From Wenyingzhuangia heitensis (GTDB taxonomy: Bacteria; Bacteroidota; Bacteroidia; Flavobacteriales; Flavobacteriaceae): DNA of 64,000 nucleotides. Position 1 is the first letter of the stretch. Each line of letters opens with the position of its first letter. The stretch covers positions 186,001-250,000 of the forward strand of contig NZ_JAASQL010000002.1 in the NCBI RefSeq assembly GCF_011762155.1, written 5' to 3'. The position numbers were made by a program, and so were the translations under genes. Of this stretch, positions 1-39,295 are shown one piece after another. The notes under the pieces are model-generated. The model was not told the origin of the DNA. It made no database searches and saw only the letters and a program-made list of their open reading frames with translations.

Positions 1-768
1 AATCCTGATTCATATGTAATTTCGGTAGATCATAACCCAAGACCATTGGATGGGTTTTCTTTAAAAAAGAGAATTAAAAAAAGGTTAGAAGGAGTTTTGT
101 ATAGCAAGTTTATTCATCAGTTTATAGGAGTTTCGCAATATACAGTGAATCATATTTTAAATGATTACGGTCAGTTTTTAAAAAAGAAAACCAAAGTTGT
201 TTATAATGGAATTGACACCGATGTTTTTGTGAAAAGAACACAAGAAAATAAAAACAAGTTTATTGTCGCTTCACATTTAAGACCTTCAAAAGGGATTCAA
301 GACTTATTAAAAGCTTTAAGCTATATGAATCCTGAATTGTTAGAAGACGTTGTTGTTGATATATATGGAGAAGGAGCCTCTAAAGAAGAATTGGAAAGAC
401 TCACTAAAGAATATAAGTTACAAAAGGTTATTACATTAAAAGGGAGTTCTTCTAAATTAAATGAATTGTTTTGTAACTATCGTTACATGATTCAGCCAAC
501 CTATATGGAGTGTTTTAGTTTGTCAATTTTAGAAAGTTTATCTGCTAACATTCCTGTAATTACAACCACAGTTGGAGGAAACTTAGAGGTTGTAGAAAAT
601 AATAAAAATGGTTACATATACAATCCTGGAGATTGCAAAGCATTGGCTGCTATTTTAGAGAATATTATTACGGGAGAAAATAACATTACAGAGAATACAT
701 CGGATTTAATTGTACAAGAATTTCATTTGACCAAAATGGTAACGAATCATATAAACTTATTGCCATGA
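1..768 (+). CDS. GT4 glycosyltransferase (5' end outside window)
   Basis: This is the C-terminal part of a GT-B fold glycosyltransferase that adds a sugar during exopolysaccharide or O-antigen assembly at the inner membrane. The frame is open from base 1 (it reads NPDSYVISVDHNPRPLDGFSL), so the TTG at 46 is not the true start; the gene begins upstream. Visible marks are the sugar-acceptor/linker signature VYNGID, a GEG loop, and the donor-site EX7E motif ECFSLSILE followed by VGGNLEVVENNKNGY, all usual for GT4. Its stop overlaps the next ATG by four bases (ATGA), which suggests translational coupling. The donor sugar and the linkage cannot be read from sequence. Confidence 0.88.
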   Translation, partial: NPDSYVISVDHNPRPLDGFSLKKRIKKRLEGVLYSKFIHQFIGVSQYTVNHILNDYGQFLKKKTKVVYNGIDTDVFVKRTQENKNKFIVASHLRPSKGIQDLLKALSYMNPELLEDVVVDIYGEGASKEELERLTKEYKLQKVITLKGSSSKLNELFCNYRYMIQPTYMECFSLSILESLSANIPVITTTVGGNLEVVENNKNGYIYNPGDCKALAAILENIITGENNITENTSDLIVQEFHLTKMVTNHINLLP

Positions 769-28455: not shown

Positions 28456-29925
28456 ATGCGTAAGTCGGTAATGCTTGTGGGAGAGGGGAATTATCCTTTT
28501 ATGGGAGGTGGTGTTTCTACTTGGTGTCATTCTATTTGTACAGAGGTTAGTGAAGTAGATTTTAGTATACTTTCTTTTACTGCAGATGTATCGTTGCCTA
28601 TATATGAGTTGCCTAAAAACGTAATATCTGTTAAGCAAGTTCCTTTATGGTCTGTAGAAGAACCTATAGAATTATTAAGGTATAACGAAAAGTATTTTGA
28701 TAGAGTTTTAAAAAAAGAACGTACTAAGTCTAGTGTCGTTCGCAATCAATTTATACCTCTTTTTGATCAGTTTATAAAAGCTATTTTTTCTAAAGAAGAA
28801 GATACAGAGTATTTATTAGAGTTATTAATTCAACTTTATACTTATTTTAAAAAATACGACTATAAGGATAGTATGTATAGTATTGAAGTTTGGGATCATT
28901 ACAAAGGTGTGGTGGGAAATGTTGCAGAAGATGATACTTATATTTCTAAGGTGAAAATATCAGATATTGTTACTTCTTTAAGATGGATTTATCGTTTTTT
29001 ATTGCCTATTACGGTAGATTTAGATAAAACAGATATCAACCATGTAACCATATCTGGTTTTCCTTTTTTACCTGTAATTATAGCAAAACATAAATATAAA
29101 ACACCTATAGTGTTAACAGAGCACGGAGTGTTTATGAGAGAGCGACTTATTAATTTAAGTGCATCTCCAATGTCTTATTTTTTAAAATCGTTTTTAATTA
29201 ACTTTTCAGAGTTGGTCACCAAAATGGCATATAAAAGTGCAGATGTGGTTGTGTCTGTAAATACCTACAATTTAAAATGGGCACAGATGTATGGTGCCGA
29301 TCCAAAAAAATGTAAGGTCATATATAATGGTGTTGATGAAAATAAATTTGTACCAAAACCTAAGCCCTTAAAACATAAAGACACTAAAGTAGTTGTAGCT
29401 GCCGCTAGAATTTTTGAGTTAAAAGATATTTTAACCATGATTAGGTCTTGTGCTGAAGTTAAAAAAGAAATTCCAAACGTAAAATACATCGTATATGGAA
29501 ATAAAGATGCCGTACCAGAATATACAACTAAATGTGAAGAATTAATCATAGAATTAGAATTAGAGGAATACTTTATATTGGCAGGATTAAACACAGATCC
29601 TCCCTCTATTTTTGTAGAAGGAGATATTTCTATTTTAACCTCTATTTCTGAAGGATTTCCCTATACTATTATAGAGTCTATGAGTTGTGGTGTGCCTGTC
29701 GTTGCTACAGATGTAGGTGGAGTAAAAGAGGCTATAGATGATGGTGTAGACGGGTTTGTGTGTAAGCCAAAAGATTATAAAGCCATTGCCGAAAAAGTAA
29801 TTATTTTGTTAAAAAACGAAGATTTACGAAAAGAAATGGCTCAAAAAAGTAGAGAAAAAGTAGTAAATAATTTTACCATTGAAGTTGTTAGAAAAGCATA
29901 TTCAGAATTGTATAAATCCCTGTAA
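28456..29925 (+). CDS. PelF-like GT4 glycosyltransferase
   Basis: A 489-residue GT-B transferase closely resembling PelF, the cytosolic enzyme that polymerises the Pel polysaccharide from UDP-GalNAc/UDP-GlcNAc-type donors. The PelF hallmark GEGNYPFMGGGVSTWCHSIC opens the protein; the long N-terminal insertion before TEHGVFMRER is also PelF-like. The donor domain has IYNGVDENKF, ARIFELKDILTMI, and the EX7E motif EGFPYTIIE with VGGVKEAIDDG. I place the start at ATG 28456 rather than an in-frame TTG at 28435. It heads six tightly packed plus-strand genes and ends two bases before the PelG-like gene. Confidence 0.87.
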   Translation: MRKSVMLVGEGNYPFMGGGVSTWCHSICTEVSEVDFSILSFTADVSLPIYELPKNVISVKQVPLWSVEEPIELLRYNEKYFDRVLKKERTKSSVVRNQFIPLFDQFIKAIFSKEEDTEYLLELLIQLYTYFKKYDYKDSMYSIEVWDHYKGVVGNVAEDDTYISKVKISDIVTSLRWIYRFLLPITVDLDKTDINHVTISGFPFLPVIIAKHKYKTPIVLTEHGVFMRERLINLSASPMSYFLKSFLINFSELVTKMAYKSADVVVSVNTYNLKWAQMYGADPKKCKVIYNGVDENKFVPKPKPLKHKDTKVVVAAARIFELKDILTMIRSCAEVKKEIPNVKYIVYGNKDAVPEYTTKCEELIIELELEEYFILAGLNTDPPSIFVEGDISILTSISEGFPYTIIESMSCGVPVVATDVGGVKEAIDDGVDGFVCKPKDYKAIAEKVIILLKNEDLRKEMAQKSREKVVNNFTIEVVRKAYSELYKSL

Positions 29926-29927
29926 TA

Positions 29928-31520
29928 TTGAAACCAATACCTGAAAATATATCCGTTTTAATTCTAGAAATTAAAAACTTAATAGGAATGCCTGTTAGCG
30001 TTAATGCGGTAATGGCAGTTTTGGAGTCTATGGGGATAAGAGAAATAGATGTCAAAGAGGATTATCATTTAGAATCTTTAGCTGTGTTAGCGGCTCTTAT
30101 ATTTAAAGAATTACTAAAAGAAGAATATTCTGATGAGGAAATGAACCCTTCTAGTTCTGAAGCTGAAGCATACATAAAATCTAATCGTGGATTTAATAAA
30201 TACAAAGATGCTATTAAGTTTTATATAAAAGGGTTAATGAGTGTTTTACCTATATTTATACAGATTGCCTGTGTAGTTATATTTGGATATGCTATTTGGG
30301 TAAATGTTGGTTTTAATGATTTGCAAAGTACAGCTGTAGTATTAAGTGTAATTTGGGCACTAATACTTACAGGTGGGTTTATACAAATGATTGGTAGAGT
30401 AGGGTCTTATTATTGGTGTTCATTACAAAAAGTAAAAGCTTATATAGCCATGAATAGACTTTTTTTTAAGGCTATAAGATTTGTGTTAACTATTTTGCTA
30501 TTTATCAACGTAGTTAATTTTTTTCTACATCTTTACCCCTACATAATGATCTTAATATATAGTATTTATACCATCTTAATAAGTATACTTTTATTATGTC
30601 TAGCTCTTATGTATCCAATAGAAAAAAGGTGGACTATTATTTTTACAATAACAACAGCTACCGCTATTGGGTTGTTTTTAAAATTCTATACCAATTTACA
30701 CATTTATCTAACTCATTGGATAGGAATTTCCACCGTAATTCTATTATCATTCTTAGTGTATCAATGGACGTTTAGAGATGTAAAGAAGAATAAAAAAAAT
30801 GAATACAAGCGATTTATTAGGGATGGAGTTATTATTTACAATAACAATCTATACTTTTTATATGGTACCTTTTTGTACATATTGGTTTTTATGGATCGTT
30901 TTTTAGCTTGGTCTGCAGATAGAGGTACTGTGATTCCTTATGTTATTTATTATGAAAAAGATTATGAAATAGGTATGGATTTGTCTATTGTTATTTTCTT
31001 TTTAGTGGCAGGAGTTTTAGAGTATAGCATGTTTGTGTTCTCTAAACAATTAAACATTGTTTTACAAAAATTAGATTTTTATAGTATAGCTGTATTTAAA
31101 AAAGCATTTGCTTATTTATATTTTAGAAATCTATTATCTTTTTTAATAACCTCTTTAGTCGCTTTTTTATTTGTGTATGGTTTTATGCATTACGATTGGG
31201 GGTATAAAAGTGCCTTTGGAGAGGGGTTTCCGGAAAGAAGTTATAATGTGTTAATTTACGGTAGTATAGGGTATTTTTGTCTATCATGGGCAATGTTAAA
31301 CGTACTGTATATGTTTCGATTAAATCAACCTAAAAATGCAGTTAAAATAGTAGGTATTGCCATTATTATAGATTTTGTAGTAGGGGCTTTTTGTAGTAGA
31401 TTTATAAGTTATGAATACAGTGTATTAGGAATGTTGGCGGGGATGTTATTTTTCTTATTAGGAAGCCTTTATTACAATTACAAAATTTTTTCAAGAATAG
31501 ACTATTATGCAGTATTGTAG
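29928..31520 (+). CDS. PelG-like polysaccharide transporter (TTG start)
   Basis: A 530-residue inner-membrane protein with a ~100-residue soluble N-terminal segment followed by about twelve hydrophobic segments. Position after PelF, length, and motifs such as YLFYGTFLYI-like NLYFLYGTFLYILVFMDRFLAWSAD match PelG, the MOP-superfamily flippase that works with PelF, PelD and PelE in Pel synthesis. The reading frame begins with TTG at 29928, two bases after the pelF-like stop; no ATG occurs until about residue 21 (GMPVSV). That start is inferred from frame and from sequence similarity in length. It overlaps the next gene by 14 bases. Export across the inner membrane is the expected role. Confidence 0.8.
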   Translation: MKPIPENISVLILEIKNLIGMPVSVNAVMAVLESMGIREIDVKEDYHLESLAVLAALIFKELLKEEYSDEEMNPSSSEAEAYIKSNRGFNKYKDAIKFYIKGLMSVLPIFIQIACVVIFGYAIWVNVGFNDLQSTAVVLSVIWALILTGGFIQMIGRVGSYYWCSLQKVKAYIAMNRLFFKAIRFVLTILLFINVVNFFLHLYPYIMILIYSIYTILISILLLCLALMYPIEKRWTIIFTITTATAIGLFLKFYTNLHIYLTHWIGISTVILLSFLVYQWTFRDVKKNKKNEYKRFIRDGVIIYNNNLYFLYGTFLYILVFMDRFLAWSADRGTVIPYVIYYEKDYEIGMDLSIVIFFLVAGVLEYSMFVFSKQLNIVLQKLDFYSIAVFKKAFAYLYFRNLLSFLITSLVAFLFVYGFMHYDWGYKSAFGEGFPERSYNVLIYGSIGYFCLSWAMLNVLYMFRLNQPKNAVKIVGIAIIIDFVVGAFCSRFISYEYSVLGMLAGMLFFLLGSLYYNYKIFSRIDYYAVL

Positions 31521-32304
31521 TAAATTAAATATAATAGTAATGTTAACAATGTTTTCCTCTGTTTTTGGAGTTAATAAGCCAGATTTTTTCATCTCTTATG
31601 AAAATATTCCTCCCTATCAAATTAAAGGGTTTGATACCGTGTTTTTAGAGTCCGCTTTTTATAACTCAGAAGATGTGGCATCTTTAAAAAAGGAAAATAA
31701 AAACGTATATGCATATATAAGTTTAACAGAAGTTAGTGAGCATAATATAGATTTATACAATAAGTTAAAACCTTATTTATTATCAAAAAATGAAACCTGG
31801 AACAGCTATTATATCAACATAGCAGATGCTAGAGCAAGAAAAATAGTCCTTAATGAAATTAAACTTATTTATAAAAAAGGGTTTGATGGACTTTTGTTAG
31901 ACAATTTAGACAACGTATCTATTCACGGTCCTTACAAAGCGTTACAATCGGCTTTGATAAAGTTGATACTTGAAATTAAAGAGCAATTTTATAACAAAGA
32001 ATTAATTCAGAATGGTGGCTTGTTTTTGTTAAATAAAACACATGCTTTTTTAAAAGGAATATTGGTAGAATCTGTTTATACCAATTATGATTTTAACTCA
32101 CAATTGTATCAATTAAGAAATAAAAGAGAAGCATTACAAAAAAAATCAAATTTAGAAAATAGTATAAAACATTATAATTTAAAAGGTTTTGTAATAGAGT
32201 ATGCTGTAGATAAAAAAATAGCGAACAAAATATACAAACACTACAGGTCTAGTAAACTGGCTGTAGTGGTAACAGATATTAATTTATCAAACAACTTACA
32301 GTAA
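31507..32304 (+). CDS. GH114-like secreted glycosidase domain protein
   Basis: A 265-residue exported protein: hydrophobic N terminus (KLNIIVMLTMFSSVFG) and a TIM-barrel-like domain of the GH114 (endo-alpha-1,4-polygalactosaminidase) type. Marks are FDTVFLESAFYN, the strand VYAYISLTEV, and GFDGLLLDNLDNV, where the paired acids are expected at the active site. In P. aeruginosa the PelA N-terminal domain has this fold and cleaves partially deacetylated GalNAc polymer. Here the domain is a separate small protein. A second relative is at 38354-39295. The start overlaps the PelG-like gene by 14 bases. Whether it is catalytically active cannot be told. Confidence 0.75.
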   Translation: MQYCSKLNIIVMLTMFSSVFGVNKPDFFISYENIPPYQIKGFDTVFLESAFYNSEDVASLKKENKNVYAYISLTEVSEHNIDLYNKLKPYLLSKNETWNSYYINIADARARKIVLNEIKLIYKKGFDGLLLDNLDNVSIHGPYKALQSALIKLILEIKEQFYNKELIQNGGLFLLNKTHAFLKGILVESVYTNYDFNSQLYQLRNKREALQKKSNLENSIKHYNLKGFVIEYAVDKKIANKIYKHYRSSKLAVVVTDINLSNNLQ

Positions 32305-32307
32305 CGT

Positions 32308-34260
32308 ATGTTATATATAGGTCCATTAAGAGTACTTTTAGTCATACTTTTTTTTCTGTTTATAGGAAAAAAAGTGTTTAGATACCCTTTGCCTTCAGAC
32401 AAAATTAATTTTTTTGTTAAGAAATGGCTTAAGTACGGAACCATTATGTATGCTTCTATTTTTGTATTACATCAACTTGGTTTTTACGATTTGTTTGCAG
32501 TACTCTTAATTATTATATTTTTAATAATAGCACATGTTTTTGGTATAAAATTTAGAGATCTATTTGCTATTGGAGAAAGGTCTAACATTGTATTGCTATA
32601 TTGGGTAGAAATTTTAGAAAAAAAGTATTTAGGAACTTTTAAAGAAAAAGAAAAGAAAAAAGCTAAAATAGTAAGAGGAGAGTATATGTTTCTTATCAAT
32701 GTTTTAATAATAAGCTTTGTACTTTTCTACTTTTTAGGTAATGACTTGTTTACATCTACTTTTGTATGGAACGATGATTTAGCAAAAATAAGGCTGTTCA
32801 ATAATCAAATGTGGTTTCTAGATAATTTAAATGAAATTGGAGATTATTCTTTAATATCTATTTATGCTAAACTTACGGGGTTAACTAATGAGTTGGCTTT
32901 AAAAACATTTGGAGTTATAGAAATTAGTATTCTATCAGTAGTCCTAAGTTGGTTTGCCTATAAATTAACTAAAAGATCTCATATACTAGCAACTTTGTCT
33001 ATGTTGTCTGTAGTAGTGTTGTTTATGTATGCTCCTACACACACAGGGTATATTGTAGCACATAACTCCATTTATTTAAGTTTAAGTTTTACAATACCTT
33101 TAATTGTTTATGCTTTAGAGCAAAAAGAAAAAACGATAAACCATAAGTTGTTTTGGTTTAGAGTTCCCTTTATTTTTTTAACCTTGTTTTTTATAAACTT
33201 ACATGTTTATATTGTTATTTTACCTTTGTTTTTTGCTTCTTTATTACTGTTTAAAAAAGATAAAAAAGGATCTTTAAAGTTTTTAGGAGCATATGGAATA
33301 GCTTTATTTATTGGTTTGGTTTATATTTATTTTGTGTCAGATTTAGACTATTTTATGTCTTACATAAGAACCAATCTAATAGCAGTAAACACTTATACGT
33401 ATCCTAGAACTTTAAAGTACAATTGGGACGATTATATAAATGTTTATTTAATTATAGGAGCACTATTTAATCTTATTTTACTAGCAGTATTTAAAAAACG
33501 TAAAGTAGATACCAAAGTATTGGTCTTTAATATGTTTATGTTTTTCTTGTTTTTACTATTTAAAACCAATACCTATTATATAGATAAAGACGTACTTACT
33601 ATTATTGTTAGAATGTTTATGCCAGTTACCATTCTAACAGCTGTATATGTTATTTATAGCAATGTTTTAGGATTCACTTTTTTAAAAAAATTAAGAACCA
33701 GTATACCTGTAAGTATTTTATGTGTATTAATATTTGTAAGCGGTTCTTATTATTATCAAAAAAATAGAGTTTATAACATTGTTCCGCCAGGAAATTATGC
33801 AAACACAGTATTAGAGGCTTATAATAAAATATTAATGAACAACTTACCCTATTCCTATATGTTGGTAAATGATAGTGATCATTTTATTTTAGACAGTGAA
33901 AATCATTTTTTAATGAATTACGATGAATTTATTCATAATTATACCAAGCAAGATTCTATCTATAGTAAATACAAAGACAAAAAAGAAGTTTTAAAAAAAC
34001 ATCCAGAATATGTGTTGCCAAATAGTATTTATGTTTTTAAATACGATGATTATGGTAAAAAGAAATCAGATGACCGTGTAAGTAATTTAAAAGAAGAATC
34101 TAAAGGTAGTTTAGAAAACAAAGCAATAGACAGTATTGTAATTAAGTTAAAAGATAGAGGTAGAAAGGTAAATGTATTTTATAAAGAAAATAATATTTCG
34201 GTATACGAAATAGAAAATATTCCCAATTCTAGTAACGTAATCGATTTAATGTTTCAGTAA
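32308..34260 (+). CDS. Unassigned polytopic membrane protein in Pel-like locus
   Basis: A 650-residue inner-membrane protein that I do not recognise with certainty. Two hydrophobic segments start it; residues 75-125 are a cytoplasmic Lys-rich loop; nine or ten more segments follow up to about residue 495; the last ~150 residues are hydrophilic (YSYMLVNDSDHF onward). The loop after the third segment carries an acidic pair (FVWNDDLAKIRLFNNQMW), and the order of segments recalls GT-C fold glycosyltransferases. It sits where PelD/PelE would be expected but shows no GAF, GGDEF or TPR features. It may supply the inner-membrane scaffold or a sugar-transfer step. Three bases separate it from the gene before, and it abuts the gene after. 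Confidence 0.6.
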   Translation: MLYIGPLRVLLVILFFLFIGKKVFRYPLPSDKINFFVKKWLKYGTIMYASIFVLHQLGFYDLFAVLLIIIFLIIAHVFGIKFRDLFAIGERSNIVLLYWVEILEKKYLGTFKEKEKKKAKIVRGEYMFLINVLIISFVLFYFLGNDLFTSTFVWNDDLAKIRLFNNQMWFLDNLNEIGDYSLISIYAKLTGLTNELALKTFGVIEISILSVVLSWFAYKLTKRSHILATLSMLSVVVLFMYAPTHTGYIVAHNSIYLSLSFTIPLIVYALEQKEKTINHKLFWFRVPFIFLTLFFINLHVYIVILPLFFASLLLFKKDKKGSLKFLGAYGIALFIGLVYIYFVSDLDYFMSYIRTNLIAVNTYTYPRTLKYNWDDYINVYLIIGALFNLILLAVFKKRKVDTKVLVFNMFMFFLFLLFKTNTYYIDKDVLTIIVRMFMPVTILTAVYVIYSNVLGFTFLKKLRTSIPVSILCVLIFVSGSYYYQKNRVYNIVPPGNYANTVLEAYNKILMNNLPYSYMLVNDSDHFILDSENHFLMNYDEFIHNYTKQDSIYSKYKDKKEVLKKHPEYVLPNSIYVFKYDDYGKKKSDDRVSNLKEESKGSLENKAIDSIVIKLKDRGRKVNVFYKENNISVYEIENIPNSSNVIDLMFQ

Positions 34261-37200
34261 ATGAAAAAGTATATAAATCTTTTAGTGGTTTTATTATTTT
34301 TTATCTCTTGCGATAAAGAAAAAATAAGCAAGAAAAAACAGATTGCCCCTAAGCAAGAGCATGGGGTTTTGTATGTAACAAATCCAACAGATAGTTTGTC
34401 TTTGGTGGTAGAGCAAAACTTAAAACATTTATGTGATTATACTAAATTCCCTTTTAAAAGTATTACAAATTCAGAGTTGGACTATCTTACAGAAATTAAT
34501 GAGAAAACCGCTTTGTTAGTACTTACAGGTTCTGATACATTGCATCAAATAACTATAAGAAAAATTGTAAAATACGTTCAAAACGGAGGAACTCTATTTA
34601 TTCCTAATCTAACAACAGACCAAAGACTTTCTTATTTGTTAGGTCTTAAAGTAGATGCAGACTTTAGTAAAGATTATACTTCTGGAGGTTTTTCTTTTAA
34701 CGAGATCTTAATTCCAGGGTATAAAAACATAACGCACAAAACAGAATATTTACACGGAGGATTAACTTTAGATAACTTTAATAATGACGTAAACATATAT
34801 GCAACAGCAGTAAACAATCCTATGTATCCTGTAATTATAGAAAATTATGTAGGTAAAGGAAAAACCATCTATGTAAACTCTAATTACGAATATGAAAAAA
34901 ACGATAGAGGATTACTTTTAATGCCTTTATTAAAAGCTATGGAAGGTATTCCGTTTCCTATAGCCAATGTGAGTACTATTTTTTTAGATGATTTTCCATC
35001 TCCTGTATACCCTACCAAAACAGAACCTATAAAGTCTGAATTTGGTTTAACCAATGCAGAGTTTGTTAGACAAATATGGTGGCCAGATATGGCAAAATAT
35101 GCAGACTCTTTGGGATTAAAATATACAGCTCTCTCTATTTATGATTATAGTTTAAATACAGTCCCTCCGTTTTCTTACAGCGAGTGGGAAGAAATAAGCG
35201 ATTCTTTATTAGTTGGAAATAAAAGTATTGTATCTACTATATCTAAAAATGTGATAAAAGACGGTCATGAATTAGGTTTACATGGTTACAATCACGTATC
35301 TCTTTTAAACGATGAATGGTTTAAAAGACCAGACTACATGGCTTTGGCACTAAAAAGTGTTTCTAAAAAATGGAAAACAGAAAATTTAGGAAAATTGCCT
35401 ATTTCTTATGTACCACCTACAAATTATATAGACAGTGTTGGTATTCAAGCATTGGTAAAAGGAATGCCATCAACCAAATATATGTGTAGTTTGTATTTAG
35501 GAGAAAAATATGATGGAGGAGATAGAGAGTTTGATGTGGAGCCTTTTCATAAAAAGTTGTACGATTATCCTAGAATATCTGATGGTTACGAACCTAGCGA
35601 CAAAATTAAATATTCCTATTATTCATTGTTTTTGTATACTGGTATTTGGACCCATTTTATACATCCAGACGATGTATACCAAATTCCGGACGAAAGTAAT
35701 TTAGAAAGTAAAGGAGAGTTTGAGTTTAGAAATAAAAATAATTTAGGATGGAGAACTACTCCGTCTAGAGCCGATAAAAAAGGAATGTTGCCTATTTTTA
35801 TTGACGATGTAGTTATTCCAATAAAAAAAACATATCCTTTTCAGCGTTATAAAACTGTAAAAAATGCGGTACCTATTGTACAAAAATGGAGAAACACATA
35901 TCCAGAATTTAAAATAACAGATAAAGAATTAACCGTTGTTAGCAACAAAAACAACCAGGACACTTATTGGCGAGTATTTGTCGGAAAAAACTTTACAAAA
36001 GAATACGAGCAATCTTTAAAAGAAAATAAAACTATCTATACCAAAACAACTTATTTAGATGGCCATTTGTATTCTCTTCATCTGCAAAATAAATCTATTT
36101 CTTTGATAAATGTAAACAACTTAAATCATCAAAAAACAGAATTAAAAACAAGAGATATAGAGTATGAACTTTTTGAATTGTTAAACGGAGAAATTAAAGA
36201 TTTAGTAAAGCAAAATAGATTAAGAGAAGCTACCAATCTTTTGGAAAACTACATCAATCAAAGACCAACAATTAAAGACAGAGTTTTTAGAATTTATGCA
36301 AAATACATGTCTTGGCAAGATAGAAATAACGGAACTTGGAAGTTTTTATATGACTATTGTAATCGTTACAATACCAAAGAAAACTTTGATTATTCTAAAA
36401 CGTTAAAAACCTATTTAACGCTACCAAGTAACAATGTTTACAATTTGTGGTTATACAAATACATGTTGTTAGAACCTAATAATACAGAGCATTATAAGGA
36501 TTTTATTACAAATAATTATGAGCCTAGGTTTTATAGTGAGCTAAAAAGAATGTATAAAATCATTCAAAAATTAGAACCTACCAATCAAAATAGAGCCAAT
36601 CAATTGTTGTTTTTATTTAGCTATTTTCCTGATGAGTTTGTAAACGAATTAAAAATGGAAGAGGTTTGTAGCAATCCTATTTTAAAAGAACAATCATCAG
36701 ATTTTTCATGGTTTTTTGCTGATAGAAAATTATATAAAAAAGCTTTAGAATGCACAAGTTGCAACAATACAATAGATGATGATACAAAGTACAATTGGTA
36801 CACAGCATTGGGAGATACTATTGCTGTAAAAAAACTATATTACAACAAGTACTTTGCCGATTTATTATATAACAATCCAGAACAAGCACTGATTGAAATA
36901 GAAACCAAAGACGTTTGTGAAGATGAAGTATTTATAAATCATTCTAACGAAATTACATGGTTGTATGCAAGTAAAAAGAACTACAGTAAAGCACTTTCTT
37001 GGAGTAAATGCTCCGATAGTATAAAACTTTTAGAAAAGTTTGATTGGATGTATCAAATGAAAGATAAAGAAGCTATCATAACAGCATATCAAGAACATTT
37101 GGTGTTACAAAAAGAAGAACAGACTCGTTTGTTATTAGACATAACAGCATTAAGAAAAAGTGCATTTTCCAATAGTATTGATGAGAATCCTAAACTAGAA

Positions 37201-38379
37201 AAAGCAGAACAAATCTATTTAAATTTTGAAGACTCTAATATAGATAACAATGCTCAGTTAGCCAATTATGTAGCTGATGTTTATTTAGAAGATGATAAAT
37301 TTAAGGAAGCGTGGCAAGTTGTAAATAACATGCCAGAGGGGGATTTAAAAACGCAGAAACAAAAAACATTAAACGATCAAGTTTTAGAACAAAAAGCAAG
37401 TACTCAAAGTTACTTGTTAGCCAATGCAGAAGAGTTGTTTTATCCTAAAATTTTAAACGATATAAAAGCATCTATTATTTTAAGAGAGCATAATTATGCA
37501 GAATGGGAAACCATAATTTCTTTAGATAAAACAAGTGTAAATGCAGTTTTAAATAGTCTGTCAGGTGTGGTAATAGATAAATATCAACACAAACACAAAG
37601 TAACGGTAAACAATCCTAATATTTATAAAGTTAAAAATCTAAATAGGTTAAATCGTTTTAGAAGAGAAAATATTCAGCACACCTATTTTGGATTAAAATA
37701 TACTTATATAAATGATAAAGTAATAGAAAACTGGAACTATCAAATAGGAGCAGGAATGGATGTAAGTGCTCAAGGAAATAAATCATTATTTAATTTTATA
37801 AGTGGTGTTTCTTACAAAGGAGAAAAATTGTTTTCTAACATCGTATTAACACATCAGGTTCCTTTAACAAGTGTTGCTTACACTATGGGTATATATGATA
37901 CCAAGTTAAATTGGTATTCGGAATATTTTTACAAGAAAAAACACGAATTTAGATTGACCACAGAAGGGGATTTATATAGTGATGGAAACAATCAAATAGC
38001 AGCTGTTATACGTTACTACAGATTGTTTAAAACAAACACAAAAAGTACCTTTTCTCCTTTTGCAGAAACATCGTACAGTCTGGGGAGTGCAGATTTACCA
38101 GGAGGTTTGCCCTACTTTGTCTTAAAAAACAGAGCTTATTATGGAGGAGGACTAAGATATCAATACCAAGCAGATCAAAATGAGATATTAAATAAATTTT
38201 CGGGTATGATTGAACCTGCTTATTTTGGCGATAGCTATTTTAATTCTTTTGGGAGAATTTACGGAGAGCTTACCTATAGATTTAGAGACTATACCTTTTT
38301 CTATTTTTCAGGAGAATATTTTTCACAAGATAATTTTTATTCAAATACATTCAATGTCGGTTTTAAACACATATTTTAA
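34261..38379 (+). CDS. Lipoprotein fusing PelA-like deacetylase, helical repeats and C-terminal outer-membrane barrel
   Basis: A 1372-residue predicted lipoprotein (lipobox FISC, Cys 17). Residues ~30-230 form an alpha/beta (glutamine-amidotransferase-like) domain; ~235-560 is a DUF2194/CE4-like deacetylase with the metal triad pattern Asp 243/244 (FLDDFPSP), His 341 and His 345 (LHGYNHVSL), plus THFIHPDDV further on. From ~640 to 1130 the chain is helical with repeated Trp/Tyr/Leu pairs, resembling TPR scaffolds. Residues ~1145-1372 are amphipathic strands ending in Phe, like an outer-membrane barrel. In P. aeruginosa, PelA (deacetylase) docks on the PelB TPRs leading to the PelB pore; here the parts look joined in one chain. 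It abuts the previous gene and overlaps the next by 26 bases. Confidence 0.72.
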   Translation: MKKYINLLVVLLFFISCDKEKISKKKQIAPKQEHGVLYVTNPTDSLSLVVEQNLKHLCDYTKFPFKSITNSELDYLTEINEKTALLVLTGSDTLHQITIRKIVKYVQNGGTLFIPNLTTDQRLSYLLGLKVDADFSKDYTSGGFSFNEILIPGYKNITHKTEYLHGGLTLDNFNNDVNIYATAVNNPMYPVIIENYVGKGKTIYVNSNYEYEKNDRGLLLMPLLKAMEGIPFPIANVSTIFLDDFPSPVYPTKTEPIKSEFGLTNAEFVRQIWWPDMAKYADSLGLKYTALSIYDYSLNTVPPFSYSEWEEISDSLLVGNKSIVSTISKNVIKDGHELGLHGYNHVSLLNDEWFKRPDYMALALKSVSKKWKTENLGKLPISYVPPTNYIDSVGIQALVKGMPSTKYMCSLYLGEKYDGGDREFDVEPFHKKLYDYPRISDGYEPSDKIKYSYYSLFLYTGIWTHFIHPDDVYQIPDESNLESKGEFEFRNKNNLGWRTTPSRADKKGMLPIFIDDVVIPIKKTYPFQRYKTVKNAVPIVQKWRNTYPEFKITDKELTVVSNKNNQDTYWRVFVGKNFTKEYEQSLKENKTIYTKTTYLDGHLYSLHLQNKSISLINVNNLNHQKTELKTRDIEYELFELLNGEIKDLVKQNRLREATNLLENYINQRPTIKDRVFRIYAKYMSWQDRNNGTWKFLYDYCNRYNTKENFDYSKTLKTYLTLPSNNVYNLWLYKYMLLEPNNTEHYKDFITNNYEPRFYSELKRMYKIIQKLEPTNQNRANQLLFLFSYFPDEFVNELKMEEVCSNPILKEQSSDFSWFFADRKLYKKALECTSCNNTIDDDTKYNWYTALGDTIAVKKLYYNKYFADLLYNNPEQALIEIETKDVCEDEVFINHSNEITWLYASKKNYSKALSWSKCSDSIKLLEKFDWMYQMKDKEAIITAYQEHLVLQKEEQTRLLLDITALRKSAFSNSIDENPKLEKAEQIYLNFEDSNIDNNAQLANYVADVYLEDDKFKEAWQVVNNMPEGDLKTQKQKTLNDQVLEQKASTQSYLLANAEELFYPKILNDIKASIILREHNYAEWETIISLDKTSVNAVLNSLSGVVIDKYQHKHKVTVNNPNIYKVKNLNRLNRFRRENIQHTYFGLKYTYINDKVIENWNYQIGAGMDVSAQGNKSLFNFISGVSYKGEKLFSNIVLTHQVPLTSVAYTMGIYDTKLNWYSEYFYKKKHEFRLTTEGDLYSDGNNQIAAVIRYYRLFKTNTKSTFSPFAETSYSLGSADLPGGLPYFVLKNRAYYGGGLRYQYQADQNEILNKFSGMIEPAYFGDSYFNSFGRIYGELTYRFRDYTFFYFSGEYFSQDNFYSNTFNVGFKHIF

Positions 38380-39295
38380 GTACGTATTGCTATTGTTAAT
38401 AATAGTTGGTTGTAATACCACTAAAAAAACAATTGTTGCTTCTCAAAAAATGCAACAAATGGTTATAGATATATCTAAAACCGCCAAGCAACAAAACACT
38501 AATTTTAGTATTATTCCTCAAAATGGATTAGAACTTCTCTATCAAAATATAGATATGGAAAATGGTTTAGATACTAGCTATGTAAATGCCATTAACGGTG
38601 TTGGGGTAGAAGCTTTGCATTATAACAAAAATGAAGACACAGATGGATATAGACGTTTGTTATTATCAAAATTACCAAAGAATAAAAAGGTATTATCATC
38701 AGAGTTTATTAATAATGATAAAGATCTAGCTAAGGCAAAAGAATTAAATACAAGTAAAGGATACATTCCGTTTGTTCGTACAAAAAACAACTTGTATTAT
38801 AGAGAAATTCCATCAACCAATAACACAGGAAAAGAAATTAAAGAGCTACAAGATGTTCAAAATTACTTATACCTTATCAATCCAGATGCCTATACAACCA
38901 AGCAGGCTTATTTACAAGCCTTGTCTACAACCAATTACGATTTGTTGTTGATAGATTTATTTTATGAGAATACTCCGCTAACCAAAAGCGAAGTCGCTTA
39001 TTTAAAAATAAAGAAAGACGGAACCCAAAGAAAGGTAATTGCGTACATGAACATTGGAGCTGTAGAAAATTTTAGATATTACTGGAAAGAATCTTGGACA
39101 AAAAAACAACCCTCTTGGTTTAAAAAACAATACGCTGGGTATGAAGATGAGTATTGGGTAGAATTCTGGAATAAAGAGTGGCAGCAAATTATTTACAAAT
39201 CAAAAAAATCTTATCTGTCTAAAATTATAGATCGCAATTTTGATGGTGTATATTTAGATAACGTAGAGGCTTATTATACGTTGTATCACAACTAA
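38354..39295 (+). CDS. GH114-like lipoprotein
   Basis: A 313-residue predicted lipoprotein: MSVLNTYFKYVLLLLIIVGC has a lipobox ending at Cys 20. The body is a GH114/TM1410-like TIM barrel: EALHYNKNE, YDLLLIDLFYEN, VIAYMNIGAVENFRYYW, PSWFKKQYAGYEDEYWVEFWN and FDGVYLDNVEAYY, where YLDN carries the expected acid. The ATG at 38354 is preferred over an upstream in-frame start at 38210 because it begins a clear signal peptide; it overlaps the barrel-protein gene by 26 bases. As the last gene of the Pel-like run it may hydrolyse or release the polymer outside the cell. It is larger and more motif-complete than the other GH114-like protein. Confidence 0.78.
   Translation: MSVLNTYFKYVLLLLIIVGCNTTKKTIVASQKMQQMVIDISKTAKQQNTNFSIIPQNGLELLYQNIDMENGLDTSYVNAINGVGVEALHYNKNEDTDGYRRLLLSKLPKNKKVLSSEFINNDKDLAKAKELNTSKGYIPFVRTKNNLYYREIPSTNNTGKEIKELQDVQNYLYLINPDAYTTKQAYLQALSTTNYDLLLIDLFYENTPLTKSEVAYLKIKKDGTQRKVIAYMNIGAVENFRYYWKESWTKKQPSWFKKQYAGYEDEYWVEFWNKEWQQIIYKSKKSYLSKIIDRNFDGVYLDNVEAYYTLYHN

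Follow-up and report, generated by a model that had tools for sequence, protein, structure and literature searches.

In Pseudomonas, the deacetylase PelA (GH166 + CE21) and the exporter PelB are separate partners: PelA binds the tetratricopeptide repeats (TPRs) of PelB, a contact described as enhancing deacetylation, and PelB, with its N-terminal inner-membrane helix, 19 TPRs and ten further helices, stands with a ring of twelve PelC (PMC12022489, PMC12141448). Here, we describe a 64,000-nucleotide stretch of the Wenyingzhuangia heitensis genome (contig NZ_JAASQL010000002.1, positions 186,001 to 250,000; hereafter the window) in which one open reading frame (ORF) on the + strand, 34261..38379, encodes a protein of 1372 amino acids (aa) that joins a deacetylase to TPR-like repeats and a predicted outer-membrane barrel. 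Pfam, phmmer, AlphaFold2 and Foldseek results make a deacetylase-exporter in a single chain, acting on a Pel-type polymer, the most likely identity of this fusion. It lies among six + strand genes (pelF, a pelG-like gene, the hydrolase gene GH114a, a membrane protein gene, the fusion and GH114b) that are spaced by 0-3 nucleotides (nt) or overlap by 14 and 26 nt. This operon is pel-like; with pelF, the pelG-like gene and GH114-type genes as neighbours, no cellulose or poly-N-acetylglucosamine (PNAG) synthase operon was found around the fusion. A single polypeptide with these three parts, and the docking of PelA on PelB repeats in the known system, had both been put forward in an earlier annotation made from the DNA alone (the sequence-only reading); the 1372-aa frame bears out the first, and the second is described in PMC12022489.

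Like the Pseudomonas pair, the fusion brings a deacetylase together with a TPR-barrel exporter. Unlike in Pseudomonas, where two proteins are involved and the hydrolase is inside PelA, here one protein does so, its deacetylase is of another family and the hydrolases are separate genes. BcsC (cellulose) and PgaA (PNAG) also combine TPRs with a 16-strand barrel and provide the best structural matches to our model; to our knowledge, neither carries a deacetylase. PgaA works with a separate one, PgaB (PMC12022489). In Zymomonas cellulose operons a modifying enzyme is fused to the export pore, as here, in the hydrolase-pore fusion BcsZC, and BcsAB fusions occur too (PMC7112194); the parts joined there are, however, a hydrolase and a cellulose pore, compared with a deacetylase and the exporter of a putative Pel-type polymer here. 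Rearrangements of pelA and pelB are on record in the same source, whose passages on them contain no PelA-PelB fusion (PMC7112194). Likewise, no report of such a fusion was found in the open-access literature (titles and abstract openings); most subscription journals and all preprints were outside the scope of this search, so that it is weak evidence of novelty.

The deacetylase half

The best Protein Data Bank (PDB) sequence match of the fusion is 9ZAU, the Bacillus cereus PelADA (CBM114 + CE26), with E 1.8e-47 over query residues 18-481 (phmmer). PelADA deacetylates alpha-1,4-N-acetylgalactosamine (GalNAc) oligosaccharides (PMC13254593), and a Gram-positive pel cluster has been described (PMC7112168). 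The Pfam family DUF2194 (PF09960) covers residues 23-570 of the fusion (E 6.6e-68). Counted along the 9ZAU alignment, D243, D244, H341 and H345 of the fusion align with D262, D263, H350 and H354 of PelADA, and R438, H468 and D471 with R458, H488 and D491. In PelADA these residues, including the HxxxH pair H350/H354, are described as a functional set consisting of the metal triad Asp-HxxxH, a catalytic base and acid, an arginine and an activating Asp (PMC13254593). The sequence-only reading had picked Asp 243/244, His 341 and His 345 as the metal triad; they are present, fall on the PelADA metal site and are kept in 39 or 40 of the 40 distinct full-length DUF2194 proteins that we collected from Bacteroidota. 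D243, H345, P385, P386, R438, H468, D470 and D471 are invariant in all 40, and D244 and H341 are conserved in every one except L093, a separate, unfused protein.

Judged from these alignments, the enzyme half is a deacetylase of the DUF2194/PelADA (CE26) kind with intact active-site residues, and it would be expected to act by de-N-acetylation. It shares with PelADA the metal triad, the catalytic base and acid, the arginine, the activating Asp and the setting in a pel operon. Unlike PelADA, a stand-alone protein with a transmembrane helix from a Gram-positive bacterium, it starts with a lipobox and runs on for about 755 more residues into repeats and barrel. We also considered whether it is a CE21-type, four-domain PelA (GH166+CE21), and rejected this identity because the match of known structure is PelADA and a gene of its own (31507-32304) encodes the hydrolase. 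What had been called a PelA-like deacetylase is, then, the deacetylase of a pel-like operon, of PelADA/CE26 instead of CE21 PelA kind. A failure of its residues to align with Pel proteins, which had been named as the contrary outcome, did not occur. The separate protein L093 (L093:9873-11693) has N in place of D244 and L in place of H341 at the metal site and is probably inactive or altered.

Along the chain, a signal sequence with a lipobox at Cys17 (FFISC; 34261..34311, + strand like all features below unless stated), as previously noted from the sequence, is followed by an N-terminal domain that matches the CBM114 of PelADA (residues ~30-235, 34348..34965; phmmer to 9ZAU, limits as described in PMC13254593). 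Next come the CE26-type deacetylase domain that holds the seven aligned residues (~236-545, 34966..35895) and a beta-rich domain as in PelADA (~546-617, 35896..36111; AlphaFold2 strands and the architecture described in PMC13254593). Residues 1-235 lie outside the AlphaFold2 model and are placed by homology to 9ZAU alone. The fusion has no NCBIfam name, and a Pfam scan found no hydrolase domain in it. A pattern scan detected the lipobox in 25 of 34 fusions, and two more (L054, L057) have one by eye; it is lacking in L044, L047-L050 and L053, and the start of L051 is not readable. All six separate DUF2194 proteins carry it. A lipid anchor thus appears common, not universal, among fusions.

The repeats and the barrel

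The AlphaFold2 model covers residues 236-1372 and is based on an alignment of 34 sequences (mean predicted local distance difference test score, pLDDT, 83.1; predicted template-modelling score, pTM, 0.42). After the CE domain it contains the small beta-rich domain, 28 helices of at least 4 residues at ~628-1076 and 16 strands at 1079-1371. The helices define a TPR-like region (36142..37488), in keeping with profile matches to TPR chains, and the strands a predicted outer-membrane beta-barrel (37495..38373), in which 26 of 30 ten-residue blocks from 1076 onward have a mean pLDDT of at least 80, the lowest being 66. The helical repeat region expected by the sequence-only reading is found in the model as TPR-like helices. 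Its barrel, placed at 1145-1372, is likewise predicted, and not a soluble C-terminus, with limits that leave out the first strands.

The five best Foldseek matches of the model are exporters: BcsC at ranks 1-3 (best E 1.2e-9), PgaA at rank 4 (E 2.2e-7, root-mean-square deviation 4.6, and a target template-modelling (TM) score of 0.74, the highest of the five) and PelBC at rank 5 (E 2.9e-7, target TM 0.53). Porins rank below them, from E 5.8e-5, and 9ZAU is not among the 50 best matches listed for residues 236-1372. When a profile of the 34 sequences was compared with PDB chains, it matched TPR chains, natural or designed (best 2.7e-5), and a BcsC TPR chain (0.0044). Pfam TPR families are matched by five of 27 fusion members and PgaA_barrel by one (E 0.0023). 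A repeat-plus-barrel fold class is well supported by the model, and an outer-membrane location would go with it. As in PelB with its PelC ring (9H80), helical repeats lead to a 16-strand barrel; unlike PelB, the fusion has a lipobox and a deacetylase at its N-terminus in place of an inner-membrane helix, and 28 helices in the model.

Several observations weigh against a Pel-type deacetylase-exporter. The query-normalised TM-scores of the top Foldseek matches are low (0.21-0.26), because the matches cover no more than a portion of the model, and at this pTM the model does not fix how enzyme, repeats and barrel lie relative to one another. No PelB is among the 60 matches listed for the 34-sequence profile, BcsC is ahead of PelBC by Foldseek E-value, and the window protein itself matches neither a Pfam TPR model nor PgaA_barrel. 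A plain BLAST search with its exporter half recovers some of the other fusions, L044 being among those missed. In the genus with separate proteins, g263, the TPR-barrel gene is outside the pel operon in locus L126, where it adjoins Wzy_C, GT4, QRPTase and ABC transporter genes (one locus scanned). Lastly, a membrane protein of the operon with a glycosyltransferase-C (GT-C)-like predicted fold hints at a polymer other than Pel.

Does the exporter half come from PelB? It might instead derive from a BcsC/PgaA-like exporter, with the operon making a GalNAc polymer unlike Pel, for example one bearing side sugars added via the GT-C-like protein; the fusion would still be a deacetylase-exporter. The first place of BcsC by E-value, the target TM-score of PgaA, the single PgaA_barrel match and the presence of BcsC and not PelB among the profile matches listed all speak for such an origin. 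However, BcsC, PgaA and PelB are described as having one overall fold (PMC12141448), because of which the Foldseek ranking decides little, and we regard this alternative as rather unlikely. The likeness to PelB is one of predicted fold only, with BcsC the better match, and descent from PelB in particular would be tentative. The PelB-like repeats of the sequence-only reading therefore stand in terms of fold (PelBC at rank 5) and not of sequence, the profile having given no PelB match.

How might a Pel-type deacetylase-exporter work? In our view, one polypeptide probably serves both to modify and to export a Pel-type, GalNAc-rich exopolysaccharide. Polymerisation by PelF would take place in the cytoplasm, followed by transfer across the inner membrane through the PelG-like protein. 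Once periplasmic, the polymer would lose acetyl groups at the metal centre of the PelADA-type half and, now partly cationic, would travel along the adjoining TPR-like superhelix of the fusion until it exits the cell by way of the 16-strand barrel. The identity of the polymer and the direction of this hand-over are read from the gene set and the domain order, and should be taken as provisional. In members that have a lipobox, the enzyme would be held at a membrane. The docking of Pseudomonas PelA on PelB would be replaced by a permanent link, with enzyme and pore at 1:1; a coupling of modification to export is the natural reading of the joined ORF. In the Pel field this coupling is open; the way in which PelA-PelB contact guides the polymer has been described from models (PMC12022489). 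A natural fusion that fixes the partners at 1:1 may provide a single polypeptide in which to examine the hand-over.

Distribution and separate homologues

In a sample of 395 genomes of the phylum, 27 had a DUF2194 match at E <1e-50, and each of these matches sat in an open frame 1268-1372 aa long. One further genome passed the family cut-off on a short, partial match, and weaker matches were present in another 18. Samples of orders and classes, which overlap with this one, gave three strong matches in 196 genomes of the order of the window species (frames of 1340-1372 aa), 25 in 128 genomes of the order of G229 (24 of them with at least one; 1283-1650 aa), two in 345 genomes of the class of the window species, both in long frames, and seven in 149 genomes of the class of G410. 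In this last class the protein of G410 is fused, and the other six, from one genus, are in frames of 620-627 aa. With Wenyingzhuangia aestuarii (DSM 105044), whose orthologue is 76% identical to the window protein, added to the distinct total, 34 of the 40 full-length proteins are long fused frames, which come from 33 genomes and five families (by the numbering of the search tool), and six, all of one genus, are separate. A contig scan with the window protein alone as query returned one locus.

These numbers bear on two further explanations. One is that a sequencing or assembly error fused two neighbouring genes; nothing was found in its favour, and since the frame is open across the junction in 34 proteins from 33 genomes, we reject it. 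The joined ORF recurs across Bacteroidota and is not an artefact. The other is that the chain is cleaved after translocation and the halves act separately, the fusion being important for expression only. A run of low-confidence residues between the beta-rich domain and the repeats (model 387-404, window 622-639) may be an exposed linker where this could happen; on the other hand, the joined ORF has been retained in those 34 of 40 proteins despite very diverged sequences, and we consider cleavage very improbable.

The six genomes with a stand-alone DUF2194 protein were searched with a profile of the exporter half (A2). In five, the best match was a frame of 552-566 aa (E 4.6e-7 to 5.3e-13); in G707, the corresponding frame (569 aa, E 1.7e-4) came behind another at 8.5e-5. 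The background of this profile is 0.002, as given by G002 and G018, which have no strong DUF2194 match. Its 27 rows include L044, the nearest relative of the separate TPR-barrel proteins, and therefore the other fusions need not be close to those proteins. In the fetched loci the separate ORF measures 527-555 aa from the first ATG in five cases and 319 aa in the sixth. BLAST aligns the five longer ORFs to the exporter part of the fused L044 protein, from G410 (E 1e-48 to 5e-57). Used as a query itself, this part of L044 matches other fusions well over their barrel only (best 1e-7), the window's not being among them. With the separate protein of L126 as query, E-values to fusions apart from L044 are 2e-5 or worse. 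Given these relations, L044 could represent a branch of its own, or the joining could have happened twice.

A tree was built for the deacetylase half from 34 fused, six separate and one Cetobacterium protein; in it a single change sets the fused proteins apart from the unfused ones, which is compatible with a single origin of the fusion. Support for the split is low, at 49/20 and 52% of 200 bootstrap trees, and Cetobacterium, L044, L043 and L101 form long branches flagged by the program. The Cetobacterium somerae (Fusobacteriota) protein is encoded on a 705-kb plasmid by a stand-alone gene (609 aa, L132:8875-10704) near annotated pelF and pelG. In this stretch no TPR-barrel gene is annotated, and two hypothetical proteins have no Pfam match. 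Two further DUF2194 matches in the plasmid collection belong to Cetobacterium and Fusobacterium.

The operon and its polymer

The gene pelF (28456..29925) encodes a GT4 glycosyltransferase (DUF3492) that matches the NCBIfam PelF equivalog with 176.5 bits (cut-off 100) and Pfam DUF3492 at 1.7e-50; the scans were made from the listed TTG start 28435, and ATG 28456 was picked by eye. The next gene (29928..31520, listed TTG start) encodes a multi-pass membrane protein with no direct Pfam or NCBIfam match to PelG. Its homologue in the deep-branching genome G410 (L103:5781-7484; 28.5% identity over their length, BLAST E 1e-52 to 7e-55) passes the PelG model PF16933 with 29.9 bits against a cut-off of 29; through this intermediate, just over the cut-off, the window protein can be assigned as a putative, divergent PelG. 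GH114a (31507..32304; Pfam GH114 1.8e-13) has the PelA hydrolase domain as its closest solved relatives (5TCB, 3.3e-11; 9CGY, 2.3e-10).

Immediately upstream of the fusion, 32308..34260 encodes a polytopic membrane protein that falls outside the canonical pel gene set and has no Pfam or NCBIfam family. Its predicted fold (AlphaFold2, pLDDT 74.0) resembles GT-C glycosyltransferases: the best Foldseek matches are OST, PglB, ALG12, DPY19 and ArnT, which we take to be GT-C enzymes, with two matches at E <=0.001 and TM-scores of 0.34-0.49 for the first seven. Since no acidic residue is found among its nearly invariant positions, the protein is perhaps not a canonical enzyme. After the fusion, and overlapping it by 26 nt, GH114b (38354..39295, ATG picked by eye) encodes a second GH114-type, TM1410-like protein with a lipobox-like N-terminus. 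It matches TM1410 in the PDB (E 1e-21) and, from the listed TTG start 38210, NCBIfam TIGR01370 at 3.5e-37 and 128.1 bits, below the cut-off of 181.25. Residues 188-307 match TM1410 chain positions 21-135 and, weakly, residues 29-124 match 149-242, an order in which GH114b looks circularly permuted relative to TM1410. A promoter scan gave 48 sites, fewer than shuffles (mean 67.3), and was not used.

The position of the GT-C-like gene next to the fusion fits the alternative of another polymer raised above, and so does the lack of a PelC-sized gene, in which the operon differs from the PelB system: none is listed, and every + strand ORF of 120 aa or more listed between the start of pelF and 39295 has a length of at least 265 aa (no PelC model search of the genome was made). 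Against that alternative, PelF, a PelG-like protein, a PelA-hydrolase-like protein and a PelADA-type deacetylase together indicate alpha-1,4-GalNAc chemistry. GGDEF gave no match in the window's genome or in four of six other genomes tested, with one match each in G410 and G683 and matches in eight of 14 controls; the PelD model PF16963 found nothing in the genome tested and nothing in any control either, and is uninformative. A PelC partner and cyclic di-GMP (c-di-GMP) control may both be absent. If another phylum manages without both, one may ask why Pseudomonas needs the PelC ring and c-di-GMP.

On the preferred reading of the fusion as a Pel-type deacetylase-exporter, Flavobacteriaceae and other Bacteroidota are likely makers of a Pel-type matrix. 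More tentatively, and with somewhat less than even confidence, we propose that Pel-type secretion has a Bacteroidota class, where one protein would serve as deacetylase and outer-membrane exporter, the hydrolases would be separate, the PelC ring and c-di-GMP control would be dispensed with and the GT-C-fold protein would be a fixed extra; the polymer may then be a Pel that is modified or anchored. In 31 of the 34 fused loci (BLAST labels; not in L044, L099 and L101), the genes stand in the order pelG-like, GH114a, membrane protein, fusion, and the membrane protein gene directly precedes the fusion in 33 of the 34, L044 being the exception.

An HD-domain gene follows pelG in many fused loci. 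Outside Flavobacteriaceae, an HD_5 protein is encoded inside the pel-like operon in L047:4403-6025, L045:13903-15534 and L103:11488-13038 (with GAF in L103), and none is in the window operon. Two fusions, L099:9169-13929 (1586 aa) and L101:6351-11300 (1649 aa), extend about 300 or more residues past the shared part; a SPOR domain is over the cut-off in L101 and marginal only in L099. Just after the fusion of L047, a DUF5777 membrane beta-barrel gene lies on the opposite strand (L047:13475-14332), and in many related loci opposite-strand ORFs of similar size follow the fusion, that of L047 being the one scanned.

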